Positions 1 through 14,346 of a stretch of DNA of 14,346 nt are shown here, in pieces (positions within the stretch are counted from its first letter, which is position 1; each line of letters opens with the position of its first letter). The position numbers and the translations under genes are program-made. The notes below the pieces were generated by a model. It was not told the origin of the DNA. It saw nothing but the letters and a program-made list of their open reading frames with translations, and ran no database searches. This stretch comes from Magnetococcales bacterium (GTDB lineage: Bacteria; Pseudomonadota; Magnetococcia; Magnetococcales; JADFWU01): positions 1 to 14,346 of the forward strand of contig JADFWU010000062.1 in NCBI GenBank assembly GCA_015234045.1, given 5' to 3'.

Positions 1-2034
1 AATGCGGCTGCTGCCTGGGCTAGTGGGGCAACGGTAGCGGCAATCGTACAGGCTGCCGTGATAACTGCCGCTACGATGTCGGCTGCCCGGTTGCTCATGC
101 CTGATGCGCCAAGCCTGTCCAGCGGTAAACGAACTCAAGCTGTTCGGCAGGCAATCGAGTCGCAAAAAATCGCCTATGGTCTGACCAGGGTGGGTGGTCA
201 ATACACCTATTTGGGCACTACCAGCGATAGAAAAATACATATCCTGATTACCTTAGCGGCACATGAAATTGAATCGGTTGAAAAGGTCTGGTTTGGTGAG
301 GAAGAGGTGTCTTTTGATCCGGTGACTGGTGAGGTAACTGGCAAATATGCCAACTTTGCTTGGGTCTATCCCGGTCTGGGGACTGCTGCAACTGATAGCG
401 GTTTACATACTGCCTTATCAACAGCATTCCCAGATAAATGGACTGCTGATCATAAGCAAACCGGGCATGCCAAAATCTATCTAGTGCTGAAAAAAAGTGC
501 CAGCAAATACCCGAATAGCGTTCCGTCAATTACCGTGTTGATTAAAGGGCGTAAGATCTTTGATCCGCGAACTGGTGTTACGGCATGGAGTGCCAATAGT
601 GCGCTGTGTGTATTGGATTATCTGATGGACACAGAGTTTGGTAAGGGTGCGGTATACCCGGACGATTTTGATGTTGATGATCTGGTGGCGTCGGCCAATA
701 ACTGTGATGAGCAGGTGACGCTAGCTGCTGGTGGCTCGGAGGCGCGATATCAGTGTCATGGTGTGCTGGATACATCCAATCGGCTGGGTAGTAATCTGGA
801 ACATTTGCTTGTTGGAATGTGGGGTCGTTTGTCGCATAGGATTGATCAGAAATGGTCTATCCGCTCGGCCTATTGGCGTCCGCCAACATTGAGTTTGGGG
901 CTGAAAGATCTGCATGGGCCTATCCGGGTTTACACATTGCAGTCAAAGCGGGATGTTTTTAACGGGGTTAAGGGCATTTTTGCGCACCCTGATGGACAGT
1001 ATCAGCCTACCGATTTTCCAGCCTATCAGGGGGCTGGGTATCTTGCTCAAGATGGCGGTATTCCGATCTGGCGTGACCTGGAATTTGGTTTCACAACCTC
1101 TGCGGCGGCGTGTCAACGCATTGCCCGTATTGCGCTGGAAGAGAATCGGCAACAGGTAAAAATTGAGATCGAGTTGCGGATATCTGCCCTGGAAATGTCG
1201 GAGGGTGACTGTTTCACACTGACGCTGGATCGATATGGATGGACTGATAAAGCGTTTGTTGTTGATGAGTGGAGATTGATCAATAAGCAGGATGATGAGG
1301 GTGGGGCTTATATAGCCGTAGCTCTTAAATGTTCCGAAGTTGATCCAGATGTTTACGCATGGGATCCGGTCGGTGATGAGAAACTAATGATTGTCTCCTC
1401 AGGCACGCCATCGGTGGATTACGATATATGCCAGCCTCCAACAAATCTGAGCGTTACTTCTGATCCGTATGTTTTTCCAGATCAAACAACGCAACCGCGT
1501 TTAAAGGCTGCCTGGGATTCATCTCCAGATTCAACGCTGAAACATTATGAAATCCGTTGGCGGGTTAATGGTTCTGGGGATGAATTTCAAATCAGCACCA
1601 CCACTGCGGCGTTGAAGTATGTAACCGGCGTTGAACACCTGGAAGAGTATGAAGTTCAGGTCGCTGCTATGAGTGAATATGATGTTTACTCTGCATGGCT
1701 CACTGATACGGCGGTTGCTGCTGGCGACACCACGCCACCGTCAATTCCGTCATCAATTCAAGTAACTGCGGAGTCAAGTGGCGGGATTGAAGTTGCCTGG
1801 TACAACTCACCTGAGCATGATTTTCAATCTGTGGATGTCTTGAGAAGTGAGACAGATGATGTTCAGACAGCCTCGGTGATAGCCACAGAAGCGGGCACAT
1901 TTGGCAGTTATGCATTTCATCTCTATCCCGATCATGTTGAAGATGTCACCTACTATTTTTGGCTCAAGGCCAGGGACACCACAGGCAATCTCAGTGATCC
2001 ATCATCGTCCTACTCAGTAACTGCAATCGCCTAG
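1..2034 (+). CDS. Phage tail tip / host-specificity protein (J-like), 5' end cut by window
   Basis: This is the C-terminal 677 residues of a phage tail tip protein, the class that closes the distal end of a siphovirus tail and contacts the receptor. The frame is open from base 1. The GTG at 58 lies inside continuous Ala-rich coding sequence, so the true start is probably upstream of the window. The first ~475 residues have the look of the J-like tail protein core (motifs such as NSVPSITVLIKGRKIFDPRTG and ALCVLDYLMDTEFG). Two fibronectin type III-like domains follow, at about residues 478-575 (from CQPPTNLSV) and 578-677 (from TPPSIPSSIQV, with DTTGNLSDPSSSY near the end), as in lambda J relatives. 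The next gene starts 8 bases after the stop, so the two are probably co-transcribed late genes. The family call is firm; the receptor cannot be named. Confidence 0.85.
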   Translation, partial: NAAAAWASGATVAAIVQAAVITAATMSAARLLMPDAPSLSSGKRTQAVRQAIESQKIAYGLTRVGGQYTYLGTTSDRKIHILITLAAHEIESVEKVWFGEEEVSFDPVTGEVTGKYANFAWVYPGLGTAATDSGLHTALSTAFPDKWTADHKQTGHAKIYLVLKKSASKYPNSVPSITVLIKGRKIFDPRTGVTAWSANSALCVLDYLMDTEFGKGAVYPDDFDVDDLVASANNCDEQVTLAAGGSEARYQCHGVLDTSNRLGSNLEHLLVGMWGRLSHRIDQKWSIRSAYWRPPTLSLGLKDLHGPIRVYTLQSKRDVFNGVKGIFAHPDGQYQPTDFPAYQGAGYLAQDGGIPIWRDLEFGFTTSAAACQRIARIALEENRQQVKIEIELRISALEMSEGDCFTLTLDRYGWTDKAFVVDEWRLINKQDDEGGAYIAVALKCSEVDPDVYAWDPVGDEKLMIVSSGTPSVDYDICQPPTNLSVTSDPYVFPDQTTQPRLKAAWDSSPDSTLKHYEIRWRVNGSGDEFQISTTTAALKYVTGVEHLEEYEVQVAAMSEYDVYSAWLTDTAVAAGDTTPPSIPSSIQVTAESSGGIEVAWYNSPEHDFQSVDVLRSETDDVQTASVIATEAGTFGSYAFHLYPDHVEDVTYYFWLKARDTTGNLSDPSSSYSVTAIA

Positions 2035-2042
2035 GGGGCATT

Positions 2043-4505
2043 ATGACATTGCATTCGATTTTTCTCGGCAACGCTAAAAATGATGGGTTGGGAGATAGTT
2101 TGCGCAATGCGCTTGGCAAGATAAATAATAATTTCCAGGTGATGAGTGAGAGTGTAACGCCTTCCTATATGGCGATGGCTTGGCCTATGCCATTGGATTT
2201 GACCGTAACGAACGCTGCTTTCCATGGGTTCGATTCAGGTTGCACTGATGGGCAGTTTGGTTATCTGGTTAACTCAACCCATATTGTGCGCTTTGACCTG
2301 CATGATTATTCAACCGTTGGTTCGTTTGATCTCTCGGTTGTTGGTGGTGATGGTGGGTTAGGATATACAGGCTGCTGTAGCAATGGGCGTTATCTCTATG
2401 TGATCTATGGGAAAATGTTTGTCACACTGGATCTGAGTGATTTTAGTACTTGGACGGCTAGTGACGTGACGGTTGATGTTGATGAGACAATAACCGACTT
2501 TTGGGGGATGTTTCTGGATAGCCAGTGGGCCTATTTAGTGCCGTATGAAAACAGTGGTGGCTATTACGGTAAGCTGGTCCGTGTGCGTTTGATTGGTGGT
2601 TACGCTGTTTCTGTTTTTGATTTGGCGACAGTGGATCCTGATTTGGTCGGCTTTCGGGGTGGGGTTACCGATGGAGAGTATGGCTATCTGTTCCCGATGG
2701 CGGAAGGCGGCGATGGAGGCTGCAAGCTGGTTCGGGTGGCGTTGGCTGATATTGGGGTTAAGAGTGCGTCGGATGTCGTTGATATCCTGGATCTCACCTT
2801 GGATGTTGGCACGGCATACGCCGGTTTCTCAGGGGGGTTTGTTGTAGGCAACTTTCTTTACTGCATTCCGAGTGGCCACCAAAGAATCTTCAAAATTGAT
2901 CTCGATGCTTTTATTGTCTCCGGCACGCTGGATCTTGCGGTGCATGATCCAGGGCAGAGTCAATACTGGGGTGGTTTTGCTTCCGGGCGGTACGGATTTG
3001 TTTGTCCCGACGGTGGTAAATTAATCCGGTTTGACTTGAGGGATTTTTCCACGGTCGTGGTGTTGGATATGACCGTGGAAAACAGTGAGTGGTTGCGTTT
3101 CCATGCTGGTTTTGTGACTGGTGAAAATGCCTATCTGGTACCCAGTGCCGGAACGGGTGATTTGGGTACGGTGCTGAGGCTGTATCTTGGGTCAGAGGAT
3201 TTTGGAAGCAGTGCAGAAATGCAATTGAGTTCCACTGCCGGTGATTTCGAGGTTGGTTATGAAGGTTCTATAAGTCTGGGGAGTGCTTATAAAGGTGTTT
3301 GGGAAGGGGCAGTTGTCTACAAAAAAGGCGATGCAGTCGCTCAATCTGGCATGCTGTATATCAGTGATCTTGATGACAATATTGGCAATAGTCCGGCAGA
3401 TTCACCGAGTTGGTGGAAGAGTATTACCGAAAAAGGCGCCACCGGAGAACCCGGCGGTTTTAGAGTTCCTCACTCTACCGCTGTAATTGATGGTGATGGT
3501 GTATTGCATTTTGATCTCTCTGAGGCGTTTTCTTTTGACGTGTTGCTCGACAAGAATGTCAATGAGATCACCTTTTCTGGTTGGCTTGAGGCTAACAAAG
3601 TAAAAGTTGATGTGCGCCTTACTCAGGGGAGCACACCATACTCAATAAATTTCGGCGAAATATTTATTCAGGAGGCAAAACCACCTGACCTGTCAAAACC
3701 TAACGCGGTTACCCTGCTGCGTTTTGAAAGTGTGGGTGGGGCTGAGGTCGATTGTGTAGTACGCGGTACAGAGATGGCAAGCGTGGCTACTGGGCTGTGG
3801 GTAGGGCTGGTCGCCTACTATGCCTGTGGAGAGCCGTCGTGGAGTGGAGCGAATGATGTGGTTGACTCATCATTCAATGCCTATAACGCCTCACCCGTTG
3901 GAGCTACCGACACTGCTGATGGTGGTGATTTTATTGCTGTTGGCAATAGGGTTGCCGTCAATACTGCTGTCGGAGATGGTATTGATCTGCCTTCTGAGGT
4001 CAAATTAACCACCATAACGCGTAATCACACATTCGCTTTATGGGTTAAGCCAACAAGTCTTGGTTCCTATCAATATCTGTACGCGCAAAAACAATCAAGC
4101 GGCGCTCCTACCGAGATGTATATTCGAATAAAAACCGACGGTAAGGTAATGGCTGTGAGTTACGTGGGTGGAGTCGGTTATATCTACACTATTACAACGA
4201 GTTCTGCCGTAACGGCTGGTGCATGGTCACATGTCATCCACACAATTGATAATGATACCGGAATGGTTAAACTTTACATTAATGGCGTGGAGGGGGCTTC
4301 AGCGAGCTTTACACCGACTCTCAACGCTGGCGCTGATAGTGTAAATGCTGGGCTTCTCACACAGAGAAGTCAAAATACTATTCACGGGTCTTCACTGATC
4401 GGCGAAGCGGATCAGATGGCTTTTTGGGACTATGTGTTTGATCAGGATGATGTTGATTCGCTCTATAATTCTGGACAGGGCCACGATATTAACGAGGGGG
4501 CATAA
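2043..4505 (+). CDS. Tail fibre / receptor-binding protein with propeller-like repeats, CBM-like module and LamG domain
   Basis: An 820-residue mosaic tail fibre. Residues 1-35 hold the phage structural N-terminal motif (GNAKNDGLGDSLRNALGKIN), probably the attachment to the tail. Residues ~58-395 contain seven consecutive ~45-60-residue repeats of the form F.GGF..G.YGYLVP...KLVRFDL.DFST...LDL, which suggests a seven-bladed beta-propeller. Residues ~415-461 (YKGVWEGAVVYKKGD to PSWWKSI) resemble the small chitin/carbohydrate-binding module common in fibres. A short collagen-like GATGEPGG at ~465-472 follows. Residues ~475-580 are a beta-rich spacer. Residues ~655-815 resemble LamG/concanavalin-like lectins (HTFALWVKP, GAWSHVIHTID, MVKLYINGVE, GEADQMAFWDYVF). 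An A+G-rich site (AGGGGGCATT) precedes the ATG. The stop overlaps the next start as TAATG. A receptor-recognition role is inferred from the domains. Confidence 0.8.
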   Translation: MTLHSIFLGNAKNDGLGDSLRNALGKINNNFQVMSESVTPSYMAMAWPMPLDLTVTNAAFHGFDSGCTDGQFGYLVNSTHIVRFDLHDYSTVGSFDLSVVGGDGGLGYTGCCSNGRYLYVIYGKMFVTLDLSDFSTWTASDVTVDVDETITDFWGMFLDSQWAYLVPYENSGGYYGKLVRVRLIGGYAVSVFDLATVDPDLVGFRGGVTDGEYGYLFPMAEGGDGGCKLVRVALADIGVKSASDVVDILDLTLDVGTAYAGFSGGFVVGNFLYCIPSGHQRIFKIDLDAFIVSGTLDLAVHDPGQSQYWGGFASGRYGFVCPDGGKLIRFDLRDFSTVVVLDMTVENSEWLRFHAGFVTGENAYLVPSAGTGDLGTVLRLYLGSEDFGSSAEMQLSSTAGDFEVGYEGSISLGSAYKGVWEGAVVYKKGDAVAQSGMLYISDLDDNIGNSPADSPSWWKSITEKGATGEPGGFRVPHSTAVIDGDGVLHFDLSEAFSFDVLLDKNVNEITFSGWLEANKVKVDVRLTQGSTPYSINFGEIFIQEAKPPDLSKPNAVTLLRFESVGGAEVDCVVRGTEMASVATGLWVGLVAYYACGEPSWSGANDVVDSSFNAYNASPVGATDTADGGDFIAVGNRVAVNTAVGDGIDLPSEVKLTTITRNHTFALWVKPTSLGSYQYLYAQKQSSGAPTEMYIRIKTDGKVMAVSYVGGVGYIYTITTSSAVTAGAWSHVIHTIDNDTGMVKLYINGVEGASASFTPTLNAGADSVNAGLLTQRSQNTIHGSSLIGEADQMAFWDYVFDQDDVDSLYNSGQGHDINEGA

Positions 4506-5117: not shown

Positions 5118-5555
5118 ATGTCAGATGATCTGAATATGCAGCAAATGCAGAAACAGTTGGTGTTGCATGAGGGTATGCGAACCGAACCCTATCACTGTAC
5201 TGCCGGAAAGTTGACCATCGGCGTAGGCCGGAACTTGGATGATGTCGGCATCTCCGAAGATGAGGCTATGGTTCTGTTGGCCAACGACATTGCCAAGGCT
5301 GAAGCTGAAGTTTCTGACCGCATTTCGGCCTATGCGGGGCTTGATGAGGTCCGAAAGCGGGTCTTGGTGGATATGTCCTTCAATATGGGCATTGGCGGAT
5401 TGTTGAAGTTCAAGAACATGTTGGCGGCGCTGGAGGCTGGTGATTATGCTGAGACTGCCCGTCAAATGCTGGATAGTCGATGGGCACGACAGGTAGGGAG
5501 CCGGTCAGAGCGATTGTCTACCATGATGGAAACCGGTGAAGATCAGATTGCTTAG
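5118..5555 (+). CDS. Phage endolysin, T4-type lysozyme (GH24)
   Basis: A 145-residue muramidase that cleaves the MurNAc-GlcNAc bond of peptidoglycan for host lysis. The family signature is clear: HEGMRTEPYHCTAGKLTIGVG near the N-terminus aligns with the T4 lysozyme active site. Glu18 corresponds to T4 Glu11 and Thr33 to Thr26. Cys27 occupies the place of T4 Asp20; this Glu-Cys-Thr form is known in other phage lysozymes such as P1 Lyz, so activity is expected. The downstream core FNMGIGGLLKFKNMLAAL and SRWARQVGSRSERL also fit. There is no N-terminal signal or SAR membrane anchor, so release would normally need a holin, and none is recognisable nearby. Length is close to the family's usual ~150-165 residues. 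The gene ends in a 3-base overlap with a convergent gene. Confidence 0.92.
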   Translation: MSDDLNMQQMQKQLVLHEGMRTEPYHCTAGKLTIGVGRNLDDVGISEDEAMVLLANDIAKAEAEVSDRISAYAGLDEVRKRVLVDMSFNMGIGGLLKFKNMLAALEAGDYAETARQMLDSRWARQVGSRSERLSTMMETGEDQIA

Positions 5556-6222: not shown

Positions 6223-6274
6223 CCCAGCCTTCACACGGCAGGGGTCACAAGTTCAATCCTTGTGCCGCCCACCA
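6223..6274 (+). other. 3' half of tRNA-Val(CAC): phage/element attachment core
   Basis: The segment reads as the 3' part of a tRNA. It has an anticodon stem and loop (GCC-TTCACAC-GGC, anticodon CAC at 6232-6234, valine), a variable loop, a T-arm with stem ACAAG/CTTGT around loop TTCAATC (6248-6264), the acceptor strand GCCGCCC, discriminator A and encoded CCA ending at 6274. The sequence upstream has no D-arm and no GGGCGGC partner strand, so this is not a functional tRNA. A tRNA 3' fragment ~95 bp from a tyrosine integrase is the classic att core. Identity may begin around 6227, because the outer anticodon stem has an A-A mismatch. Confidence 0.85.
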
Positions 6275-6302
6275 TGTTTAAGAATTTAGAAACAACATGT
6301 TA

Positions 6303-6366: not shown

Positions 6367-7494
6367 TTATCCAGCGTTTTGGTTCTGATTGCTGATTTGA
6401 ACGACCTGTGCAGCAGTCCGTTTTGCAGCATCAGTTGCTTGCACATAATGCTGATCTGTCACCCGGGTTCCAGGTGCGTGACCAAGCAGAGCTTGCAGAA
6501 CCCGTTGGGGGGTGCCGCTGTTTGCCTGCCATGTAGCAAAGGCCTTCCGAAGAACGTGTGGTGTGATCTTCATAGGCTGACCATCATGTACCAGACCAGC
6601 TTTGAGGATTGCTGCACCTAAAGCTTTGCGGATATTATCACGAGGTTTGTTGGGGTCGCCCTTGGCGTGGAAAACGTATGGGCCACGTTTTGGCAGATTC
6701 CGAAACATAGACAACAACTTTTTTCCAACGGGGACCCGTCGAATGGATTGCCGAGTTTTTGGGGTCCAACCATCCTTTGGTTTAAACTCCACCCACCCGT
6801 TGATTTCGTCAACACAGTCCCAGGTAAGATTAAACGCCTCACCTGCACGACAACCGGTTTCTGCCATCAACTGGACTATGGGTTTCACTGACGGCCTTAT
6901 CGCGTCAATGAGGCGACCAACTTCTTCCATCGTTGGTACGTGAACTATCTTGGGGAATTCAGGAATTTGCTCAACGTCGGGCACTTCAATGATAATCTTG
7001 CTCTTCTTCGCCCAACGCAGCACCTTCAGCAGTGTCCGTACATCTGAGTTGATAGTTGCCGGACTTTTGCTTTGATTGATCCGATGCTCCTGGAATCGCA
7101 CTATGCTGTCTTCAGTTACAGATGTTAGATCAATGGTCCCATAAAACTCCTCAAGCACCTGTAGCCGGTACCCATCGGTTTCAAGTGACGAGGCGCGCTT
7201 TTTCAGGGTTCGCACCCTGGTTTCCTCCTTTTCCTTCCACCTGACAAAGGCATTCTTCAGGGTCACTCCACTCCGCTTCACCGATTGCTCGAACCCCAAA
7301 GAACGGGTCTCCAACCCTCGTTTCAGTCGCGTGGCGGCATCAGCAGCCTGTTTTCTGTTTTCAAAGAGCTTCCGCTTACGCTGTCCAGTGGGCATCAGCT
7401 TTGCGGGAATATCCAAAAACCACTTCCCGGTTTTGACGCCTTTCAGAACCTGCGGGCGGATGGTGACGGGACCAATTTTTTTCGATTTACTCAT
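6367..7494 (-). CDS. int: Tyrosine-recombinase integrase
   Basis: A 375-residue site-specific recombinase that would integrate the element at the adjacent tRNA-derived att site. I chose ATG 7494 (MSKSKKIGPV) because AAGGAGAACGTT lies directly upstream; an ATG five codons earlier would sit on that ribosome binding site. The N-terminal ~75 residues are a basic arm-binding type region. Residues ~78-170 are the SAM-like core-binding domain (TLKNAFVRWKEKEETRVRTL, ATINSDVRTLLKVLRWA). The catalytic domain follows, with Arg216 (GCRAGEAFNLTW), likely Lys246, His313-x-x-Arg316 (TPHVLRKAF), His339 (LLGHAPGT) and nucleophile Tyr350 (DQHYVQA). All key residues are present, so it is probably active. The excisionase-like gene ends 53 bp upstream. 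Length is typical for phage and island integrases. Confidence 0.93.
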   Translation of the reverse strand: MSKSKKIGPVTIRPQVLKGVKTGKWFLDIPAKLMPTGQRKRKLFENRKQAADAATRLKRGLETRSLGFEQSVKRSGVTLKNAFVRWKEKEETRVRTLKKRASSLETDGYRLQVLEEFYGTIDLTSVTEDSIVRFQEHRINQSKSPATINSDVRTLLKVLRWAKKSKIIIEVPDVEQIPEFPKIVHVPTMEEVGRLIDAIRPSVKPIVQLMAETGCRAGEAFNLTWDCVDEINGWVEFKPKDGWTPKTRQSIRRVPVGKKLLSMFRNLPKRGPYVFHAKGDPNKPRDNIRKALGAAILKAGLVHDGQPMKITPHVLRKAFATWQANSGTPQRVLQALLGHAPGTRVTDQHYVQATDAAKRTAAQVVQISNQNQNAG

Positions 7495-7547
7495 AACGTT
7501 CTCCTTCATCGAGAACGCTCCCGCACGTCATCCCGGGAAGGAGTGTA

Positions 7548-7841
7548 TCACCCCAAAACCTCGGTGAGCAGGTCTTGAGGTATTTCCGGGACAATCCGTC
7601 GGGAACGGATAAAGGCTAGCAGATCATCGCGGAGATACAAGTTACAGCGGCCAGGCCCCCGGTAGACTGGCAAATCCTCTTTGTGAATCCTGCGTAAAGT
7701 GTCCACCGTACAACGGAGGATTATGGCAGCCTCATCAATAGTGAGGATTTCTTGGTCAACAACATGGTGCTGGGCTTGGCTGTGACCATCCGTGGATTTT
7801 TCCATCAACACTTCAGGCTCTGAATTGATTTGTGAAGACAT
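7548..7841 (-). CDS. AlpA/excisionase-type HTH (MerR-like) protein
   Basis: A 97-residue protein. The start ATG at 7841 is preceded by GGGAGGA at good spacing. The first ~33 residues are low-complexity and probably disordered. Residues ~34-85 (LTIDEAAIILRCTVDTLRRI, then LPVYRGPGRCNLYLRDDLLAF) match the helix-turn-helix DNA-binding domain of the excisionase/AlpA type (HTH_17), with the usual pattern of helix, recognition helix, then a wing ending in a basic-aromatic segment. Placed immediately upstream of the integrase and in the same direction, it is most likely the recombination directionality factor or a regulator of integrase expression. The fold is clear; the excisionase role is inferred from position. 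Confidence 0.8.
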   Translation of the reverse strand: MSSQINSEPEVLMEKSTDGHSQAQHHVVDQEILTIDEAAIILRCTVDTLRRIHKEDLPVYRGPGRCNLYLRDDLLAFIRSRRIVPEIPQDLLTEVLG

Positions 7842-7915
7842 CACTGTCCTCCCGCATGTCTCTGCTTGCAGTAGCTGAAGTAGCCCTCCAGCTGGTCCTT
7901 TTTTGTGATAGGGCA

Positions 7916-9539: not shown

Positions 9540-9569
9540 GCTGCTCCAAACTTCGCACTTTGGAGCAGC
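9540..9569. repeat. Hairpin GCTGCTCCAAA/TTTGGAGCAGC
   Basis: A perfect 11-bp inverted repeat with an 8-base loop in the spacer between the 216- and 117-residue minus-strand genes. The plus strand continues CAGTTTT, giving only a weak T-run. The same 10-bp arms recur at 13172-13199, also upstream of a minus-strand gene. That favours a shared regulatory or transcript-end element over chance. Confidence 0.6.
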
Positions 9570-10541: not shown

Positions 10542-11000
10542 TCAGAACGGCTTGGAATGAACATGATTCAGCAGCACTTTGGCTGATGGAAAGTTGGAGT
10601 CGACCCACTTTTCAGCAACCCGCCGTATCCCGGCATATTTTGGAAGTGTTGAGTCGGTGAAGCTCTCACTGTGCTCGGTGTACTCTTCAATCCACATTGC
10701 AATGCCCTTATTGGTCTTCAGGAAGCTGGAGGTCTTGTCAGCGATCTTCCGCTCCGATATCCGACCGCCGTGCAGGTATTTCAACCACCCCTTATCCTCC
10801 ATCACGTCTTCGATCACCCGGACGATTGTTGCGTACCGCTCTTTGGCCGAGTCCTGAACCATCCCTTCAAAGAACTTGTCGACACACACCTCAACGTCGA
10901 TTTCCTTATCCTTGTTCATGACCATCCTCATCATATCGAGATCAGCGATTTTGTTGGAGCAGTGGGGGCAAGTGAGGGATCCTTTTAGAAGGTCACACAT
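10542..11000 (-). CDS. Hypothetical protein with N-terminal CPHC motif, 152 residues
   Basis: Not recognised. The N-terminus MCDLLKGSLTCPHCSNKIAD places a CxxC pair (Cys11, Cys14), with Cys2 nearby and Cys39 further on; this could be half of a zinc-binding knuckle, but a complete four-ligand set is not obvious. The remainder is helical and highly charged (VCVDKFFEGMVQDSAKERYA, RVIEDVMEDKGWLKYLHGGR, RRVAEKWVDSNFPSAKVLL), suggesting a soluble nucleic-acid- or protein-binding factor. The purine-rich GGTGAGAC before ATG is rather distant, so the start is moderately supported. This is the most upstream gene of the minus-strand row, and the structured non-coding region begins directly behind it. 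Confidence 0.65.
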   Translation of the reverse strand: MCDLLKGSLTCPHCSNKIADLDMMRMVMNKDKEIDVEVCVDKFFEGMVQDSAKERYATIVRVIEDVMEDKGWLKYLHGGRISERKIADKTSSFLKTNKGIAMWIEEYTEHSESFTDSTLPKYAGIRRVAEKWVDSNFPSAKVLLNHVHSKPF

Positions 11001-11229
11001 GGCTGAGCCGTCTCACCACGGACGGCATGGCCCCACCATTGGGGCCACCAGACCGTCGTCGCGATTGGCCCTAAAGCCGTTTTGAAGGCTGGATGGACGT
11101 AGTAGTGAAAATGAAAAATCGCACTTTTCTGTAACTAACTGTAAAATAAGGAATAAATTTTCAGCTTGTTTTCGCTTTGTCTGACGATGGTCAGGAAGGC
11201 TGGAGGCAGCGGCTCATAGAACAGCCCTA

Positions 11230-11251
11230 CCTTCCCCCTAAAGGGGGAAGG
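11230..11251. repeat. G/C hairpin CCTTCCCCC-TAAA-GGGGGAAGG
   Basis: A perfect 9-bp stem with a tetraloop-size spacer. It is not followed by a T-run on either strand. Confidence 0.7.
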
Positions 11252-11407
11252 CTGATGTCATCAGTGACTGGTAGTGGAATTGAGAGTAAGTAGCTCGTTG
11301 GACTGGATCAGTGAGGCAAGCGCTTCAGCTGATCAGGCTGGTTGGGTTCTGGACATGGTTTTTGGCCACCGCAAGCTTCAGCTTGTGGCCTTCTCCATCG
11401 GTGCTGA

Positions 11408-11467
11408 TTTTTGCCACACGACGGTTTTTCTTTTTTTAAAACACAACAAGATATCGTGTGGCAAAAA
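11408..11467. repeat. T-tract stem-loop, copy 1
   Basis: A perfect 14-bp inverted repeat TTTTTGCCACACGA / TCGTGTGGCAAAAA enclosing a 32-base loop made of a C/T run, then AAAACACA, then AAGATA. The loop core (TTTTCTTTTTTT followed by AAAACACAA) recurs in copy 2 at 11614-11670. Confidence 0.8.
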
Positions 11468-11489
11468 CGACGGTTTTGAATGGATGCTA

Positions 11490-11529
11490 TTCAGGCCGAA
11501 TGCTTCGCTGGGCTCCACATCGGCCTGAA
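11490..11529. repeat. Hairpin TTCAGGCCGA/TCGGCCTGAA
   Basis: A perfect 10-bp inverted repeat with a 20-base loop, just downstream of T-tract stem-loop copy 1. The left-arm sequence AGGCCGAATGCT reappears as AGGCCGAGTGCT at the same relative place after copy 2, which extends the duplicated unit. Confidence 0.65.
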
Positions 11530-11613
11530 AAATGATGTGTCAGGTGAGTTGACAAGTTGGTTACCTGACCGGTGATGGAAGCCCAAGAAGAAGCCATCGG
11601 TCAGTTGCATGGT

Positions 11614-11670
11614 TTTGCCACACCCTTGCTTTTCTTTTTTTTAAAACACAAAAAGACATCGTGTGGCAAA
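11614..11670. repeat. T-tract stem-loop, copy 2
   Basis: A 10-bp inverted repeat TTTGCCACAC / GTGTGGCAAA with a 37-base loop. The loop contains TTTTCTTTTTTTT, AAAACACAAAAAGA and CATC, nearly the same as copy 1. The start-to-start distance is 206 bp. The motif CCATCGGT precedes both copies at similar spacing. Confidence 0.8.
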
Positions 11671-11734
11671 TCATCATTCTTCTAGGCCGAGTGCTGGCTG
11701 GTCTCCTGAAACGTGGCATCAATCAGCCAGTATC

Positions 11735-11785
11735 ATCACTCAGACCGAGGCGTAGGCACCAAGCCGGAGCCTCGGTCTGAGTGAT
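11735..11785. repeat. 17-bp perfect stem-loop
   Basis: The arms at 11735-11751 and 11769-11785 (ATCACTCAGACCGAGGC and its exact complement) are separated by 17 bases, which themselves contain GGC-ACCAA-GCC. This is the longest perfect stem in the window. There is no flanking T-run, so it is not a standard terminator. Confidence 0.8.
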
Positions 11786-11992
11786 CCAGAAACCTGAATT
11801 ATAAGGCTGGAATCAGAACGATCCTTTCTGGCCCAGCCCATGTTTCCGGGGGGAAAGCTTGTAGCCGGAAAGATTGGGGTTCTACAGCCCCTTCATGGGG
11901 TTGAAAACCATTTCGGGAACACCGGGGCCGAAAAAAATTGAAGCCGCTAGGAGGCGTTTCATACCTGAGTTCATGCTTCGACTTAAGGCCTG

Positions 11993-12017
11993 GGATGGGC
12001 AGTGAACCTGCCCATCC
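11993..12017. repeat. Hairpin GGATGGGCAG/CTGCCCATCC
   Basis: A perfect 10-bp stem with the 5-base loop TGAAC, near the right edge of the structured non-coding region. Confidence 0.7.
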
Positions 12018-12113
12018 ATCACGGATGAATCAAGGGCTTGAATATTTCGTGTATTCAGTACTCACTGGAATGTAGGGCATCTCGTTTCCTCCCATCCATC
12101 TGGCTACGATATC

Positions 12114-12293
12114 CTAGAGTTTCTCTTTTTCTTCGAACCACTGTCGGATCCAAATGGCTAACCCATGATTACCAGCCATCCAAGTCTCATCCATCAACGT
12201 CTTAAACTCTGCGATATCCAGCTGGGTCAGGTATGGGATTTTATTCAACGCTGCTCTTTCCTACCTTATGGCCTCGATTTCATGCTCATCCAT
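12114..12293 (-). pseudogene. Small ORF interrupted by an in-frame amber codon
   Basis: Reading from ATG 12293 gives MDEHEIEAIR, then TAG (12261-12263), then a protein-like 48-residue stretch (ERAALNKIPYLTQLDIAEFK, then TLMDETWMAGNHGLAIWIRQ and WFEEKEKL) ending in TAG. GGAGAA stands seven bases before the ATG, and the 15 bp around that ribosome binding site are identical to those before the intact 211-residue gene at 7960-8595, so this is a genuine translation start. The simplest reading is a nonsense-mutated small gene. Alternatively, translation restarts at a TTG four codons after the amber, where AGGAAAGAG precedes it, making the first ten codons a leader peptide. Amber is used as a normal stop elsewhere in the window, so recoding is unlikely. 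No family is recognised. Confidence 0.55.
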
Positions 12294-12537
12294 AACAACA
12301 TTCTCCAAAAAAGTTGAAGGCATCCATGCCAGTGTGCGTCTAGCAAAACAGTGGGCTTTCGCCCATAAACCTGTTGGTGCTCGTCTATATCCACGAATCC
12401 ATCGCATCCTGACAACCGAGGCGGAGGCACAAAAGCCGCAGCATCGATTGACTGATGATCAAAAAGCACTCGAATAGATCATCAGTGTTTTTTATTGTAG
12501 GTTGGAACTTGCCCCACCTCCTGATTATTTATTGCGT
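12294..12537. other. 244-bp spacer between two minus-strand genes
   Basis: I see no supported gene. It includes the shared leader (12301-12315), a short GGGC-TTTC-GCCC hairpin near 12355, and the terminator-like hairpin at 12451-12493. A 67-codon minus-strand frame crosses it but lacks a ribosome binding site and starts inside the hairpin. Confidence 0.45.
12451..12493 (+). terminator. Terminator-like hairpin with T-run
   Basis: A 10-bp perfect stem ACTGATGATC / GATCATCAGT around a 16-base loop, followed by G and six T residues on the plus strand. No plus-strand gene is visible just upstream. It may insulate this region, or act on transcripts from the non-coding region if those run rightward. 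Confidence 0.5.
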
Positions 12538-13080
12538 TTACCCCCAAGCAAAAACGCCCCGCTTGTTCTCGAACGCAAGCGCTATATTCTCAGACAGTTC
12601 CGCATCAATCCTCTCTTCCCAGTAGTCCGTCGCATCAGTCAGGCACGAAAATATGCCCCTTTTGCTGGATGAAAACGCAGCACCGTTGCCATATCGAAAT
12701 CCGTGAATGGCTGCGATATTCGCAAAGGTTCCACCATACATAGGAATACCAATCCGGCAGATATGGATTGCACAGACCAGTATGAATAGATTAAGCGGAG
12801 AAGGGCTGAACTCATTCACTAACTGTTTGATCTCTGGCTCGTTGTACTCGTCAGTGAATCGAAAAGAAGTTAGCGCCTCTTCGATCTGATCCAAAGTCGT
12901 GCAATTTTTCAAAAGAACAGGTATTGAAGCGACACGCTTGTCCAATTCACTACCAATTCCACCAGAAGCGCATGTACGAAAATCAACTTTCACGACATTC
13001 TCCAGTTGATGGCATGGTGTAGACACCGCACCATGATTTTGAGGAATAAGATCGGTTGCTACAGCGTTTGATCCATTCAT
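12538..13080 (-). CDS. Hypothetical protein, 180 residues
   Basis: Not recognised. The start is strong: AGAGGTGATTAATC precedes ATG (MNGSNAVATDLIPQNHG). The first ~40 residues are polar with two cysteines (STPCHQLENVVKVDFRTC). Residues ~45-90 look helical and acidic (TTLDQIEEALTSFRFTDEYN). A hydrophobic stretch at ~95-113 (PLNLFILVCAIHICRIGIPM) could be a buried helix or a single membrane segment. The C-terminal ~65 residues are mixed, with a final acidic helix (DYWEERIDAELSENIALAFE). It stands between the amber-interrupted ORF and the transposase. It may be cargo of the mobile element or host sequence. The hairpin at 13172-13199 and a ~145-bp leader lie upstream of it. Confidence 0.7.
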   Translation of the reverse strand: MNGSNAVATDLIPQNHGAVSTPCHQLENVVKVDFRTCASGGIGSELDKRVASIPVLLKNCTTLDQIEEALTSFRFTDEYNEPEIKQLVNEFSPSPLNLFILVCAIHICRIGIPMYGGTFANIAAIHGFRYGNGAAFSSSKRGIFSCLTDATDYWEERIDAELSENIALAFENKRGVFAWG

Positions 13081-13171: not shown

Positions 13172-13199
13172 CTGCTCCAAAAAAAGTGTTTTGGAGCAG
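13172..13199. repeat. Hairpin CTGCTCCAAAA/TTTTGGAGCAG
   Basis: A perfect 11-bp inverted repeat with a 6-base loop in the leader of the minus-strand 180-residue gene. Its arms match the hairpin at 9540-9569 over 10 bp, while the loops differ. Confidence 0.65.
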
Positions 13200-13294: not shown

Positions 13295-13322
13295 CATAAA
13301 GATTCACCATAATCTTTATGAA
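13295..13322. promoter_or_regulatory. Inverted repeat covering the transposase start codon
   Basis: A 12-bp arm pair TTCATAAAGATT / AATCTTTATGAA (13293-13304 and 13311-13322) with loop CACCAT places the transposase ATG inside the right arm. No Shine-Dalgarno sequence precedes the ATG. In RNA the stem would occlude the start and hold transposase synthesis low; as DNA it could be an operator. Confidence 0.5.
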
Positions 13323-14346
13323 TTTCGACTTCTCACAACCTGCGCCTCGTCTTGATTCAATGACTCCCGAAGAGGGGCAACGTCTTGTTGACACCCTGTG
13401 GGAGTTACTGCGTATTCAAACCGTACGAATTGACAAGCTGGAGACTCAGGTCAAGAATCTTGAAGAACGTTTGAATTTAAACTCTCAAAACTCCTCACGT
13501 CCTCCATCCAGTGATTTTGGCAACGGGAAACGTCAGACTCGAAAAAAAAGACGGGCTACCAATCAATCTAGTCCATCTAAGCGGTCTCAGGGCGGTCAAC
13601 CAGGACACAAAGGCACTTCAAGGAATCTGTTACCATCTGATCAAGTAGATGAATTTATTGACTGTATCCCGCAGTCAACTTGTAGGTGTGGTGGGAACGT
13701 TCATGTTGATCCCACAAAACATGCACGACATCAGATATTTGAACTTCCGGTTATTCGCCCTCTTATCACTGAATTTCGATTATTCTCCGGCATCTGTTTT
13801 CAGTGTGGCAAACCCCATACAGCCAAGCTACCCAAGGAATACATTAATGGGATGTTTGGTCCCAGAATGATGGCCTGGATCGTCGTCCTTTCCGGCCTTT
13901 ATCAGATAAGCCGTCGAAAAATCCAACGTTGGCTTGAAGATCTGGTTGGTGTTTCGGTGAGTCTCGGTACTATTTCCAAAACTGAAGAGCGCGTGAGCGA
14001 TGCGCTTCACCAATCAGTCAGGGAAGCAGCTGACCATGTCCGTACTGCACCACATGTCAATCTGGATGAGACTGGACACAAACAAGCTGGTAACACTGGC
14101 TGGATGTGGGTCTCGGTGACCTCTATTGTTACCGTCTTTCGGATCAGGATGTCGCGTGCTGCTATTGTGGCAAAAGAAATTCTGGGAGAAGCTTTCACAG
14201 GAATCGTCATTTCAGACCGGTACTCTGCTTACAACTGGGTTGATCCATCTCGCCGTCAATTATGTTGGGCACATCTAATTCGGGATTTTCGTCGAATTGC
14301 AGGCCGAAGTGGCAAAGCGGGTCACATTGGCGATAATCTTCTTTAT
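13318..14346 (+). CDS. IS66-family transposase (TnpC-like), 3' end cut by window
   Basis: The first 343 residues of an IS66-family DDE transposase; the frame stays open to the window end. Residues ~36-60 form the N-terminal leucine-rich coiled region (LETQVKNLEERLNLNSQNSS), followed by the family's RPPSSD motif and a basic GGQPGHKG segment. A zinc-finger-like cysteine set follows: Cys122/Cys124 (CRCGG) and Cys160/Cys163 (CFQCG). The catalytic domain begins with Asp250 (VNLDETG) and Asp300 (VISDRYSAYNW), then the conserved CWAHLIRDF. The catalytic Glu would lie beyond the window. No tnpA or tnpB orthologue precedes it, as in the tnpC-only (ISBst12-like) subgroup. The start ATG is inferred from the family N-terminus and sits in an inverted repeat. 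Confidence 0.92.
   Translation, partial: MNFDFSQPAPRLDSMTPEEGQRLVDTLWELLRIQTVRIDKLETQVKNLEERLNLNSQNSSRPPSSDFGNGKRQTRKKRRATNQSSPSKRSQGGQPGHKGTSRNLLPSDQVDEFIDCIPQSTCRCGGNVHVDPTKHARHQIFELPVIRPLITEFRLFSGICFQCGKPHTAKLPKEYINGMFGPRMMAWIVVLSGLYQISRRKIQRWLEDLVGVSVSLGTISKTEERVSDALHQSVREAADHVRTAPHVNLDETGHKQAGNTGWMWVSVTSIVTVFRIRMSRAAIVAKEILGEAFTGIVISDRYSAYNWVDPSRRQLCWAHLIRDFRRIAGRSGKAGHIGDNLLY

Follow-up and report, generated by a model that had tools for sequence, protein, structure and literature searches.

This locus raises the question of what a gene-free stretch crowded with stem-loops is doing among the genes of a phage. We have analyzed the window, which is one whole contig (C76) of 14,346 nt from a genome of 3.65 Mb in 117 contigs; this genome is the single member of its family among the 48 genomes of its class that were compared. 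A first-pass annotation had described the stretch as phage-associated non-coding DNA packed with hairpins, and had proposed a large ornate RNA or a hairpin-rich replication origin as its identity. Our leading reading, held with a little less than even confidence, is that the array is a cis-acting control region of the replication-origin type, belonging to a mobile element (a temperate phage or a phage-derived island).

A hairpin array in a phage early region

A summary of the features of the window is presented in Table 1. The tail genes, lysozyme, attachment-site core, integrase and AlpA-like gene mark the contig as that of a temperate phage, with the array in its early region; the association with a phage is thereby borne out. 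The 49-bp core looks like attP, because the host tRNA-Val locus on contig C29 is intact and has neither an integrase nor a phage gene among its neighbours; the window contig may represent phage DNA in the free state, or else an element that has integrated at another site. AlphaFold models of two of the orphan proteins were of low confidence, and the IS66 transposase is present as a single copy in the assembly. Separately, a palindrome of the form CTGCTCCAAA-N6-8-TTTGGAGCAG occurs at 9541-9568 and at 13172-13199 and is absent from the rest of the genome.

Table 1. Features of the 14,346-nt window
Feature	Position	Strand	Remarks
Phage tail genes	58-4505		
Lysozyme	5118-5555		
Attachment-site core	6227-6275	+	49 bp, copied from the 3' end of tRNA-Val(CAC); lies between the lysozyme and integrase genes
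Tyrosine integrase	6367-7509	-	PF00589, phrog_1
AlpA/excisionase-like HTH_17 protein	7548-7844	-	
Several orphan genes	between AlpA-like gene and array	-	
98-aa ORF, DUF4268 fragment or lone domain	8751-9047		matches C-terminal half only (DUF4268 / PADLOC PDC-S11)
152-aa orphan gene	10542-11000	-	adjoins array; AlphaFold model of low confidence
Non-coding hairpin array	11001-12113	.	24-25 local stem-loops
Unit A	11408-11605	.	T-rich hairpin (stem TTTTTGCCACACGA/TCGTGTGGCAAAAA), then hairpins 11490-11529 and 11565-11604
Unit B	11613-11800	.	diverged duplicate of A; T-rich hairpin 11614-11670, hairpins 11691-11733 and 11735-11785
H14-type hairpin	11735-11785	.	17-bp perfect stem, 3x3 internal loop, GGC-NCCAA-GCC apex
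TTTCGGGAACACCGGGGCCGAAAAAAATT motif	11911-11947	+	also 71 bp after the H14-type hairpin on C84
Small ORF	12114-12293	-	broken by an in-frame amber codon
Unit C	12349-12480	.	diverged copy of the 3' part of unit B, with H14-type hairpin 12405-12450
10-bp hairpin after unit C	12451-12486	.	entry for unit C with this hairpin runs to 12490
180-aa orphan gene	12538-13080	-	
IS66-family transposase	13318-14346	+	PF03050, PF20042; cut by contig end

The array consists of about 20 short DNA or RNA hairpins without a gene, and the first description holds. With loops of up to 40 nt allowed, it contains 13 perfect inverted repeats with arms of at least 7 bp (shuffle mean 2.4, maximum 8), 7 with arms of at least 8 (mean 0.66, maximum 3), 6 with arms of at least 10 (mean 0.04, maximum 2) and 2 with arms of at least 12 (none in 100 shuffles). 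Six stems reach a score of at least 10, against four in the densest 1113-nt stretch of the genome, in a survey of ~10,000 windows that covered 1.1 Mb, or about a third of the genome. The z score of the minimum free energy is -8.3 on the plus strand and -8.8 on the minus strand, and stays at -7.9 and -7.8 when pairs are limited to 70 nt; four control segments of the contig gave values between +1.2 and -3.2. The local elements span 84-90% of the bases of the array, and 11 8-mers are present at least three times (0.4 in shuffles). Single hairpins are also found in other intergenic gaps of the contig. The array has no credible ORF, no match to Pfam when all six frames are searched with stops masked and no terminator-like site, which upholds the earlier statements that it is non-coding and that its hairpins are not simply terminators. 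Its proposed limits stand only in part: the array is there, but it does not end at 12113, since hairpins continue in a diverged copy of a module (unit C) beyond the degraded small ORF.

Units A and B open with a common T-rich hairpin of ~60 bp; the first 77 columns of their alignment are 82% identical (E 9e-12), and the remainder, after the T-rich hairpin, is also alignable, with a score reached by none of 500 shuffles. The array has grown by duplication, with an old tandem pair (A/B) and the diverged unit C. Four copies of TTTGCCACACG in the window, one of them with one mismatch, form two inverted pairs around T-runs.

A search of 60 related genomes, of phages and of plasmids identified no DNA homologue of the array region, and searches of viral contigs, phages, genome contigs and 398 genomes of the phylum gave no useful relatives of the integrase or the orphan proteins. 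The closest integrases (62% and 44%) belong to elements without such an array. Pattern scans returned chance coding matches or nothing. The R3 match in genome G022 is a tandem coding repeat. In none of the collections searched was a homologue of the array found outside the source genome.

A recurring hairpin and a second array

The 17-bp hairpin of unit B (11735-11785), designated H14-type, bears CTGAGTGAT in both orientations on its outer arms. A covariance model (R2) built from the copies in units B and C matches one further site in the genome, C84:26611-26663 (E 2.8e-4), with the loop and apex of the H14 type and an 11-bp stem that is wholly different. The three copies are paralogous, and the search that located the one on C84 used a model rewarding pairing; across them, 7 of the 11 stem pairs differ on both sides while 97.6% of cells remain paired (0 of 500 shuffles). 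Because the apex is conserved while the stem pairs change, the folded strand seems to matter. One G.U pair is kept only on the minus strand, which is the strand of the neighbouring genes. The motif TTTCGGGRACACCGG comes after the H14-type hairpin both in the window and on C84, with order and orientation unchanged.

Reading around the C84 site revealed a second array of 600 nt at C84:22839-23439 (L151:4840-5440), 3.2 kb from the H14-type hairpin, which lies outside it. With z scores of -9.5 to -12.3, this array is the densest hairpin locus in the 1.1 Mb surveyed; the window array shares the next rank with a run of near-identical host repeats. On one flank is a gene for a 1124-aa CyRepA1-type helicase/primase (PF02399, 4e-10; phrog_4913 'replication', 4e-92), and on the other a 295-aa HTH_36 gene resembling phrog_270 'replication initiation'. 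The C84 element also encodes AlpA, DUF2787 and a tyrosine recombinase.

The two arrays share several features, which were found by exploration, so that the chance values given here are optimistic. All nine exact copies of CTGANTGAT, a motif picked after looking at the sequence, in the 20-kb C84 locus fall inside the C84 array (1.3 expected; 0 of 200), as do five of the seven copies of CCAACTGA. In the window CTGANTGAT occurs in three exact copies within 68 bp, two of them forming the outer arms of the 17-bp hairpin. When one mismatch is tolerated, the whole contig has 32 copies, against 15 expected (0 of 200). Each array has two tandem units, ~183 and ~205 bp apart (~183 bp on C84), and in every tandem unit a T-run lies in the loop that separates the inverted repeats. 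The likeness of the T-rich modules themselves is mainly through these T-runs: unit B scores 17.5 against C84, less than the 18.0 reached by the top-scoring T-run segment elsewhere in the genome. Overall, these resemblances suggest, short of proof, a link between the two arrays, and a similarity so weak beyond the T-runs does not establish their common descent. In the 1.1 Mb surveyed, dense arrays of unlike hairpins are found only on these two integrase elements; elsewhere in the genome, places rich in hairpins are either coding sequence or near-identical host repeats.

Dispersed palindromes with almost the same sequence, TGGAAAGGGA-cacg-TCCCTTTCCA and GCACTTTTYGYCC-ttt-..., occur at L056:13723-14057 and L064:3260-4137. 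These are host REP-like repeats, of a type unlike the array hairpins.

Origin, RNA or neutral palindromes

A cis-acting DNA region is favoured because of the position of the C84 array between replication genes, the repeated motifs, the AT-rich segments between inverted repeats and the symmetry between strands. Equal folding on both strands fits palindromes that act at the DNA level. Tandemly duplicated modules, with AT-rich segments lying between inverted repeats, would make up the region, and further stem-loops could extrude from single-stranded or supercoiled DNA. The repeated arms would be bound by an initiator encoded by the element, the T-rich segments would then open, and hairpins formed on the exposed strand could mark or load the priming machinery there, or block the fork. 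We infer a common role for the window and C84 arrays, the occurrence of initiator binding and opening, and DNA rather than RNA as the working form.

Both arrays contain a repeated short motif together with an AT-rich segment, and protein binding is putative. The C84 array adjoins two replication genes; the early genes of the window contig are orphans, and no replication gene was recognised there. The origin proposed in the first-pass annotation gains support, short of proof, from the C84 array; GC skew, an inversion of which that annotation named as support for an origin, has no clean switch. An origin of the DnaA type was rejected, with no DnaA boxes near the window array or in L151. Further points against the origin reading are the missing replication gene on the window contig, the four other CyRepA1-type plasmids that have no array of this kind beside rep, the weak likeness of the T-rich modules and the location of the C84 H14-type hairpin outside the C84 array. 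If the arrays are origins, their design is unusual: tiles of unlike perfect hairpins take the place of identical iterons, and pairing is kept rather than sequence. Such origins would be invisible to sequence searches, and this could explain the unrecognised origins of many environmental phages and islands.

The conserved apex of the H14-type hairpin may fit hairpins of a single-stranded DNA origin, but it may fit RNA as well. A large structured non-coding RNA of the phage, or a long structured 5' leader of its leftward early operon, seems to us unlikely, though ahead of the other rivals. The size and phage setting are those expected (the size class of GOLLD and ROOL, or of a ~800-nt ICP1 transcript), the folding signal is strong, the H14-type apex is conserved over a covarying stem, and the G.U pair is kept on the strand of the neighbouring genes. 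There is also a precedent in the abundant ORF-less RNAs, of about this size, made by phage ICP1 and its satellite PLE, for which complementarity of the non-coding RNA to ORF leaders was reported (PMC7567579). However, an Rfam scan of the window identified no family up to E=1, so the suspected kinship with GOLLD, ROOL or HEARO is not supported, and the first-pass annotation was right to leave the array unmatched to a known class; the C84 stretch gave only sub-threshold chance matches. Neither a sigma-70-like promoter nor a terminator bounds the array at threshold. The z scores are alike on both strands and under the 70-nt limit, unlike those of a strand-asymmetric multibranched RNA, and no homologues outside the source genome were found for a real covariation test. 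One specific role for an RNA, that of a CsrA sponge, was rejected: GGA occurs 22 times on one strand, but there is no ANGGA. If the arrays do specify RNAs, these would be a further kind of large phage RNA, distinct from the ornate classes already known. The presence of two arrays in one genome makes the question testable either way.

The most novel proposal, a shade more doubtful than an RNA, is that the arrays belong to a hitherto undescribed family of folded-strand modules carried by mobile elements of this bacterial lineage. Its members would have the conserved GGC-NCCAA-GCC apex over a 3x3 loop and stems replaced wholesale with pairing kept, and would be tiled in arrays close to replication genes or early genes, where they would serve either as origins on single-stranded DNA or as a large RNA.

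We consider it improbable, and less so only than the explanation dealt with last, that the palindromes are neutral or weakly selected products of local duplication and template-switch mutation in decaying mobile DNA, folding without function. Template switching creates perfect stems, and compensatory changes of several bases at once, with no selection acting on RNA (PMC8794818), and could give the H14 pair changes; the neighbourhood is partly degraded (the amber-broken ORF, the DUF4268 fragment and the IS66 insertion), and the array is internally duplicated. Such an origin for the palindromes nevertheless leaves unexplained the C84 array between replication genes with its nine copies of one motif, the conservation of the H14 apex under stem change and the restriction of dense unlike-hairpin arrays to two integrase elements. 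Finally, that the array is what remains of a protein-coding gene, or a series of ordinary terminators, is very improbable, despite the broken ORFs nearby, as the six-frame search gave no Pfam trace of a decayed gene and the array holds no terminator-like site.

Comparison with known systems

The array resembles GOLLD and ROOL in size, phage setting and heavy predicted structure, and the contig carries the end of a tRNA as attachment site. It differs in the absence of an Rfam match and in hairpins that are only local and strand-symmetric. With the ICP1 and PLE transcripts it shares ~1 kb without ORFs in a phage, whereas its antisense or direct matches to intergenic gaps are marginal (4 of score at least 11, against 1.4 in shuffles). 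The likeness to integron attC sites lies in hairpins of a folded single strand that have unpaired internal loops and a tyrosine recombinase nearby; an attC array was rejected, since no RYYYAAC/GTTRRRY core-site pair is present in the array.

The remaining systems are iteron or AT-rich origins of plasmids, phages and satellites, among which the CyRepA1-type replicons are the best comparison here. Four other CyRepA1-type plasmids have no such array beside rep, and the arrays described here differ from these replicons in lacking DnaA boxes. Iteron and AT-rich origins are like the arrays in having AT-rich segments between inverted repeats; short repeated motifs are also common to both, while flanking replication genes are found only at the C84 array. 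Compared with these origins, the arrays presented here are far denser in unlike stem-loops.
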